Source of the DNA: Echinicola rosea
GTDB lineage: Bacteria; Bacteroidota; Bacteroidia; Cytophagales; Cyclobacteriaceae
Direction of reading: 5' to 3'
DNA length: 64,000 nucleotides
NCBI RefSeq assembly: GCF_005281475.1
Contig: NZ_CP040106.1
Coordinates: 3,376,501 to 3,440,500 of the forward strand
The notes under the pieces were generated by a model. That model did no database searches, had not been told where the DNA came from, and saw only the letters and a program-made list of their open reading frames with translations. Shown piece by piece: positions 46,810-47,062 of this stretch. The number at the start of each line of letters is the position of its first letter. Position 1 is the stretch's first letter. Made by a program: the position numbers and the translations under genes.

Positions 46810-46840
46810 TTTGAATTTATAGCCGCTGTTGTTAACTTTG
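46810..46840 (+). promoter_or_regulatory. Promoter of the tRNA-like gene
   Basis: TTTG (46810-46813), 19 bases, then TAACTTTG (46833-46840) match both consensus elements exactly. The start would be near 46846, about 30 bases before the acceptor stem at 46876. Confidence 0.8.
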
Positions 46841-46875: not shown

Positions 46876-46998
46876 TGTAGGGTGATGAAATTGGCAGACA
46901 TGCCCCCCTGTCTCGGGGGTGGGGATCTGGGATAAAGCAAATATCGAGCTCGTGTTTTGCCTAACTGCCCCGTGGAGGTTCGAGTCCTTCCCCTACAG
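46876..46998 (+). tRNA. tRNA-like gene: Leu-type class II fold, GUC anticodon, oversized variable region
   Basis: A cloverleaf of 123 nt can be drawn without mismatch except one G·U pair in the T stem: acceptor TGTAGGG (46876-46882) with CCCTACA (46991-46997), discriminator G; D arm ATG / CAT with loop AAATTGGCAGA, as in tRNA-Leu; anticodon stem CCCCC / GGGGG with loop CTGTCTC (anticodon GTC, 46910-46912); T arm GGAGG-TTCGAGT-CCTTC. The variable region (46920-46973, about 54 nt) can form GGGG/CCCC and GCAAA/TTTGC stems around a loop holding the palindrome CGAGCTCG. The anticodon would read Asp codons but the D arm is Leu-type and the long arm and G73 are Ser-like, so charging is uncertain. 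It has its own promoter and terminator. It could be a decayed tRNA or a tRNA mimic. Confidence 0.7.
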
Positions 46999-47029
46999 CA
47001 GGTTATTTTGGGTTTATTGTTAATTGACT

Positions 47030-47062
47030 AAAGCTATGGGATTGTTTTCATAGCTTTTTTTT
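47030..47062 (+). terminator. Terminator of the tRNA-like gene
   Basis: AAAGCTATG (47030-47038) pairs perfectly with CATAGCTTT (47049-47057), with a 10-base loop, followed by a run of eight T. It ends 64 bases after the tRNA-like 3' end, so the predicted primary transcript is about 215 nt. Confidence 0.85.

Follow-up and report, generated by a model that had tools for sequence, protein, structure and literature searches.

A conserved tRNA-like RNA of Bacteroidota with an aspartate-type anticodon loop and an asparagine-type first pair, a candidate carrier for tRNA-dependent asparagine synthesis

The RNA at positions 46876–46998 (+) of the window, the whole 64-kb stretch of DNA that was analysed, is real, conserved and well beyond chance, and no decayed tRNA. 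It is one member of a multi-copy family that occurs in Cytophagales and elsewhere in Bacteroidota. On balance, and with somewhat better than even confidence, it is read as a dedicated non-decoding tRNA for tRNA-dependent asparagine synthesis. This accounts most simply for the following: the aspartate identity set and the GatCAB-recognised pair are invariant, the decoding loop is poor, GatB is present in all element-bearing genomes tested, E. coli-type AsnB is present in none of them, and an AsnC-like gene is a neighbour.

Every arm drawn in the earlier note is present in the window copy. The acceptor stem has 7 bp, formed by TGTAGGG (46876–46882, +; U1 and G2 invariant in 110/110 copies of the family) and CCCTACA (46991–46997, +). 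The D arm (46885–46901, +) has the 3-bp stem ATG/CAT and the Leu-like class II loop AAATTGGCAGA; its first pair is AU in 58, UA in 25, GC in 12 and other in 15 of the 110 copies. The anticodon arm (46903–46919, +) has the stem CCCCC/GGGGG and the loop CTGTCTC (C32 U33 G34 U35 C36 U37 C38), with anticodon GUC. The T arm (46974–46990, +) reads GGAGG-TTCGAGT-CCTTC and is paired in 100% of cells. Positions 46991–46999 (+) hold the 3′ strand of the acceptor, followed by the discriminator G73 (46998) and by C74 (46999), and G73-C74 is found in 110/110. T33 and a long variable region, also remarked on in that note, both occur in the window copy; T33 is not conserved in the family (U33 in 85/110). The variable region is about 53 nt long. 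Its arm (46921–46971, +), marked by covariation, consists of an outer helix of 4 bp (46921–46924/46968–46971, +), a second helix of 3 bp (46928–46930/46965–46967, +), an internal loop, GATAAA/CTAA in the window copy, and a terminal hairpin (46937–46960, +). Folded alone, the window copy has a minimum-energy structure in which the standard D arm is not drawn (z-score −2.05; 4 of 200 shuffles fold as well). Its neighbours in the window are SusC/SusD-like and sulfatase-like ORFs, as read from their translations.

The element would be transcribed as a gene of its own, then processed and CCA-tailed as a tRNA. Upstream, a match to the Bacteroidota promoter consensus, TTTG-N19-TAACTTTG, lies at 46810–46840 (+); the pattern is found twice in the 64 kb against 1.5 expected, so the match alone is not above chance. 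TAnnTTTG-like boxes recur upstream of many homologues. Downstream lie the trailer GTTATTTTGGGTTTATTGTTAATTGA (47002–47027, +), repeated 3′ of many paralogues and relatives, and an intrinsic terminator-like hairpin (47030–47062, +) with a stem of 12 pairs followed by a T run. The 39 canonical tRNA entries listed for the own genome (distinct with their flanks) all have C74 after the discriminator, and three of them encode CCA or CC; the element obeys the same C74 rule. Tandem copies of the element about 45–51 nt apart exist, as in tRNA operons. Many loci of genome family f1 have a conserved trailer, TTTTGGGTTTATTGTTAATTGA or TTTTTGGGTTAATGTTGTTTATT, after the 3′ end of the tRNA-like part and ahead of the terminator. 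The trailer GGTTATTTTGGGTTTATTGTTAATTGA is common to the element and to a different, smaller tRNA-like sequence in which no anticodon arm can be recognised (L100 100–186, −; own genome C1:640982–641088). A second minimal tRNA-like stretch, with a T arm and no standard body, lies close to a full copy (L029 5416–5475, −).

Standard tools do not report the element. ARAGORN calls only a tRNA-Arg in the 64-kb window, and Rfam gives no gathering-level match at the element site, RF00005 included; at E up to 5 it gives four matches far under the family cut-offs, none of them tRNA. A literature search, with most subscription papers beyond its reach, found no description of the RNA. A DNA search of 59 relative genomes gave matches in 47, and the own genome has five strong copies. 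A covariance model was built from 28 copies and run on 78 chosen loci at E up to 1e-20, giving 111 matches; the 110 distinct ones form the alignment set. Complete members score 79–136 bits, a short-armed variant in genome G048 69.4 bits and a copy cut by a contig end (G050) 73.8 bits; the G148 member scores 61.6 bits in the strict genome search and 101.9 on its own locus. Canonical tRNA-Leu matches among those inspected reach 64.4 bits (L317), and the best canonical match in the own genome is tRNA-Leu(GAG) with 57.4 bits; weaker matches of 85–90 nt were called tRNA-Leu on an inspected subset. Carriers among the matches listed in an exact-pattern scan are Cyclobacterium, Echinicola, Algoriphagus, Mariniradius, Lunatimonas, Dyadobacter, Fulvivirga, Flammeovirga, Emticicia, Chryseolinea, Chitinophaga and Saprospiraceae. 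In a phylum draw of 296 genomes, members outside the class occur only in family f65 (G330, G338).

Covariation with changes on both sides occurs in every helix, the variable-arm stems included. Standard pairs fill 96.4% of pair cells in the 110 copies, versus 85.7% after shuffling and 50–55% with partners slid. Both sides change in 21 of 32 pairs (422 cells versus 121 expected), and none of 500 shuffles attained any of five covariation measures; these values lean towards the structure because the alignment was fitted to it and the inner variable-arm pairs were picked by eye, and kinship inflates them. Given the slid controls and the effect size, chance is unlikely. Across the family the variable region folds into a single compound arm: a 4-bp helix, a bulge on the 5′ side and a 3-bp helix lead to the conserved internal loop RAUAAA/CUAA, beyond which stands a hairpin that varies greatly in length. 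The arm is long in all members seen except that of G048 (L315 2336–2415, −), an RNA of about 76 nt with anticodon AUC that lacks the long arm and retains U1-A72, G2-C71, U35, C36, C38 and G73. The apical part of the arm repeats the motif GGTTGACCAC at L037, L041, L046, L047, L107, L109, L112, L114, L124 and L126; copies of the window's genus have the palindrome GAGCTC at this position instead.

Homologues with covarying stems, which the earlier note had named as a check, thus exist, and its suggestion of a decayed tRNA with an insertion in the variable arm is refuted by the covariation and by conservation across families. Origin as a pseudogene or mobile element from tRNA-Leu would agree with the Leu-like body and with the near-identical copies scattered through the window's genus; the both-side changes covarying in every helix, the AsnC synteny recurring across families and the invariant identity bases stand against it and leave it a probability close to nil.

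The bases that bear on charging are nearly all fixed. G73, C74, U35, C36 and C38 are each found in 110/110 distinct copies, as are the pairs U1-A72, G2-C71 and U3-A70; G34 is found in 107 (A in 2, C in 1). The copies were gathered by similarity to the window RNA, so that more divergent members, such as that of G048 with A34, may be uncounted. According to the accessible part of PMC9976931, the strong aspartate determinants are G73, G34, U35, C36 and C38, and G1-C72 and G2-C71 are strictly kept in bacterial tRNA-Asp. The element family has all of the strong determinants, with G1-C72 replaced by U1-A72. The U1-A72 pair of tRNA-Asn is the one recognised by bacterial GatCAB (PMC4206432, in the portion available), and it is present in 110/110 copies. 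In the own genome tRNA-Asp has G1-C72, and tRNA-Asn and tRNA-Gln have U1-A72. G10 is an aspartate identity element in E. coli; it occurs in only 12/110 copies, with A or U in 98. The RNA thus resembles bacterial tRNA-Asp(GUC) in G73, G34 U35 C36, C38 and G2-C71, and differs from it in having U1-A72 instead of G1-C72, a Leu-like body and a long variable arm, and in not keeping U33 and purine 37. It resembles the tRNA-Leu of its own genome in the D loop AAATTGGNAGA and the T arm, but has G73 instead of A73, another anticodon loop and first pair, and a much longer arm. That the combination fits no standard isoacceptor, as first noted, is borne out.

Decoding by the element appears unlikely because U33 is missing in 25/110 copies (G in 15, A in 6, C in 4) and position 37 is a pyrimidine in 108/110 (T in 100, C in 8; G in 2, the only purines). 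The features of a decoding tRNA-Asp that the family lacks are G1-C72, U33 with purine 37, and the short variable loop, the last of which is found in the G048 variant only. The GUC anticodon and the aspartate determinants are what would be expected of an unusual Asp tRNA, or once amidated an Asn-for-Asp tRNA, reading GAC/GAU. Such a tRNA is very improbable given the loop; the genome already has two canonical tRNA-Asp genes, and the amidated form would mistranslate Asp codons. The same loop makes the mis-decoding tRNA once suggested for this locus unlikely.

Still less probable, to the point of being barely credible, is a tRNA charged with serine in the manner of allo-tRNAs, SerRS reading G73 and the long variable arm. 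G73 in 110/110 copies and the long arm in all members seen but one agree with it, yet the invariant U35, C36, C38 and U1-A72 are left unexplained, and the G048 member has no long arm. This member, with the aspartate determinants and U1-A72 retained, points to AspRS, not SerRS. Allo-tRNAs, as described in the accessible part of PMC7609411, are likewise of class II, with Ser-type identity elements and varied anticodons including GUC; unlike the element, with its 7/5 acceptor branch (7-bp acceptor, 5-bp T stem) and invariant U35-C36-C38, they have branches of 8/4 or 9/3 and anticodons that vary, and come from Clostridia, Proteobacteria and Acidobacteria.

The comparison of gene content covers 80 genomes. 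Fifty come from the relatives draw of 59, from which nine of the window's genus were excluded; 22 were picked for the element (G148 among them, on a weak match) and 8 for its absence. Sixty-one are element-positive, namely those with strict-search members and, after inspection, G048, G050 and G148; absence was judged with Infernal's stricter filters, which can miss short members. GatB (TIGR00133; the only GatCAB subunit searched) is present in 61/61 positives versus 6/19 negatives (Fisher p = 8.6e-11; this and the other Fisher values overstate independence, the genomes being related). The 50 genomes from the relatives draw had not been selected by element, and among them GatB is present in 39/39 versus 5/11 (p = 2.9e-5). 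E. coli-type AsnB (NF006949, E up to 1e-80) is present in 0/61 positives versus 8/19 negatives (p = 2.6e-6), and in 0/39 versus 4/11 of the relatives draw (p = 0.0014). Among the 73 class-level genomes of the phylum draw, AsnB exceeds the cut-off in 0/30 positives versus 34/43 negatives, with G111 just under it; AsnA is present in 4/30 versus 4/43, and seven negatives have neither synthetase over cut-off. An anticorrelation of AsnA with the element was looked for in the 80 genomes and not found (7/61 versus 3/19, p = 0.69, counting G045 as AsnA-bearing though just under cut-off); the relatives draw gives 5/39 versus 1/11. Either AsnA or E. coli-type AsnB is present in 7/61 versus 10/19 (p = 0.0004; relatives draw 5/39 versus 5/11, p = 0.03). 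Both are absent in 54/61 positives, and seven have AsnA. With AsnRS present in 79/80 genomes, there is no obvious need for GatCAB in making Asn-tRNA there.

Single families illustrate the pattern and its exceptions. In f1, G020 (with AsnA) and G024 (with AsnB) lack both element and GatB, and in f22 G060 matches the pattern in lacking both; in f23, G075 lacks both yet has neither synthetase. Six negatives bear GatB: G052 and five others (G037, G038, G042, G057, G099) that have neither AsnA nor E. coli-type AsnB; these five may have a short-armed variant that was missed, or may use tRNA-Asn instead. None of the element, GatB and the two synthetases is found in G018 (83% complete), G049, G075 and G103. 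Broad AsnB-like paralogues occur in 79/80 genomes, this one included, and exceed the TIGR01536 cut-off in 70/80. The best of the own genome scores 340 bits on TIGR01536 (cut-off 267) and 210 with the E. coli-type model, for which the cut-off is 499; its gene adjoins a glycosyltransferase gene, and its nearest solved structure is named hydroxyamidotransferase, with asparagine synthetases ranking behind. Against the carrier reading count these paralogues, nearly universal as they are, the GatB-bearing negatives, AsnA in 7/61 positives and the mostly absent G10; the class II D loop could, moreover, hinder GatCAB.

GatCAB may serve Gln-tRNA in some of these bacteria. A search for GlnRS by sequence motif, covering 1.6 Mb (56%) of the positive genome G065 and other loci, found none, and GluRS was likewise not found; a looser GlnRS motif gave three matches, read by eye as LeuRS, MetRS and ValRS. 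Among 14 Bacteroidetes, 12 have GlnRS without gatCAB, one has both and one has gatCAB without GlnRS (PMC3927822, in the part of the paper available). Because of these counts, confidence in the asparagine-carrier reading is set a shade lower than it otherwise would be.

AsnC is the commonest neighbour of the element. A divergent, AsnC-like gene of the AsnC/Lrp family stands no more than 350 bp away in 16/39 f1 genomes and in 25/35 genomes of 17 other families, 13 of which have at least one case; adjacency in at least one genome is thus found in most families (14/18). The tblastn match is the point from which distances were measured, and in many genomes the count covers a part of the copies. Among 119 named loci the AsnC-like gene is within 1 kb in 67; in 11 the upstream sequence is too short. 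AsnC (NF008384) is the best NCBIfam match for the five neighbour proteins tested (161–177 bits, under the cut-off of 227). AsnC is present in 20/20 genomes in which it was sought. The E. coli asnC and asnA genes are divergently arranged. Here AsnC was not found beside asnA or asnB at two AsnA and six AsnB loci (about 1.5 kb on each side). The copies examined in f26, in the window's genus and at some other loci have no AsnC gene beside them; the window's genus has its RNA genes scattered, and where AsnC and suf share a locus in the own genome and in G002 there is no element. Eight AsnC genes examined separately have no adjoining element, one of them ending at a contig end. The neighbour clusters met most often, as identified by Pfam or NCBIfam, comprise AsnC, an acyl-CoA ligase and the suf operon; a link to suf was dropped, suf being beside the element in part of the families only. 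In G054 the place of AsnC, divergent from the element, is taken by a gene for a type III glutamine synthetase (L036 5500–7644, +).

An independent gene with its own terminator, divergent from an AsnC-like regulator and bearing an arm with a conserved internal loop and a variable hairpin, could also be a regulatory tRNA mimic: an AsnC-controlled RNA bound or charged by AspRS (or bound by GatCAB) that senses or titrates Asp or Asn with no carrier role. By itself this would leave unexplained the invariant U1-A72, GatB in all positives tested and the lack of E. coli-type AsnB, and the arm is absent in G048; such a mimic is considered unlikely. The mimic or regulatory tRNA of the earlier note thus came close, but the determinants for AspRS and for GatCAB, combined with the gene association, point to a metabolic role that it had not considered. 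Non-ribosomal tRNAs, exemplified by the staphylococcal cell-wall tRNA-Gly, are likewise not mainly decoding, and differ from the element in amino acid, structure and proposed use. A comparable carrier from which a lipid, peptide or cell-wall acceptor receives Asp or Asn would be compatible with the charging and amidation determinants and with the poor decoding loop. It is distinctly unlikely, more so than the mimic: the recurring neighbour clusters examined contain no aminoacyl-tRNA-dependent transferase, the representatives of c9 and c12 having no Pfam match.

Under the preferred reading, a carrier for asparagine synthesis, ordinary AspRS would charge the element with Asp through the GUC and C38 of the anticodon loop, G2-C71 and G73, and the GUC anticodon would permit charging by a discriminating AspRS. 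GatCAB would then amidate the bound Asp to Asn through U1-A72, a pair not found in canonical tRNA-Asp. The Leu-like body with its long arm and the improper decoding loop would bar this Asn from Asp codons; the Asn would be freed by hydrolysis or handed on. The divergent AsnC-like regulator may match the supply of the element to asparagine. The same enzymes and the same U1-A72 signal act in known tRNA-dependent asparagine synthesis, in which non-discriminating AspRS and GatCAB work on tRNA-Asn (Deinococcus, Thermus, Bdellovibrio), and which occurs in bacteria that have AsnRS but no asparagine synthetase (PMC4206432, in the portion available). There an ordinary decoding tRNA-Asn is the carrier and AspRS must be non-discriminating, whereas the element is a separate RNA with an Asp anticodon, for which a discriminating AspRS would do. 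In the same portion of that paper, 18 genera of several phyla, Bacteroidetes included, have AsnRS, GlnRS and GatCAB and no asparagine synthetase, with tRNA-Asn the supposed carrier (PMC4206432).

For the group as a whole, the chance is judged barely above even that several families of Bacteroidota keep a non-decoding tRNA, often multi-copy and under AsnC-like control, that serves solely as an Asp-to-Asn carrier, a composite of a Leu body, an Asp anticodon loop and the first pair of Asn and Gln tRNAs. If so, this would explain the way in which Bacteroidota that have AsnRS and GatCAB and lack both AsnA and AsnB make asparagine with neither mistranslation nor a non-discriminating AspRS. The RNA would also offer a clear instance of a tRNA that has left decoding to serve as a metabolic carrier, its identity rules recombined by evolution.
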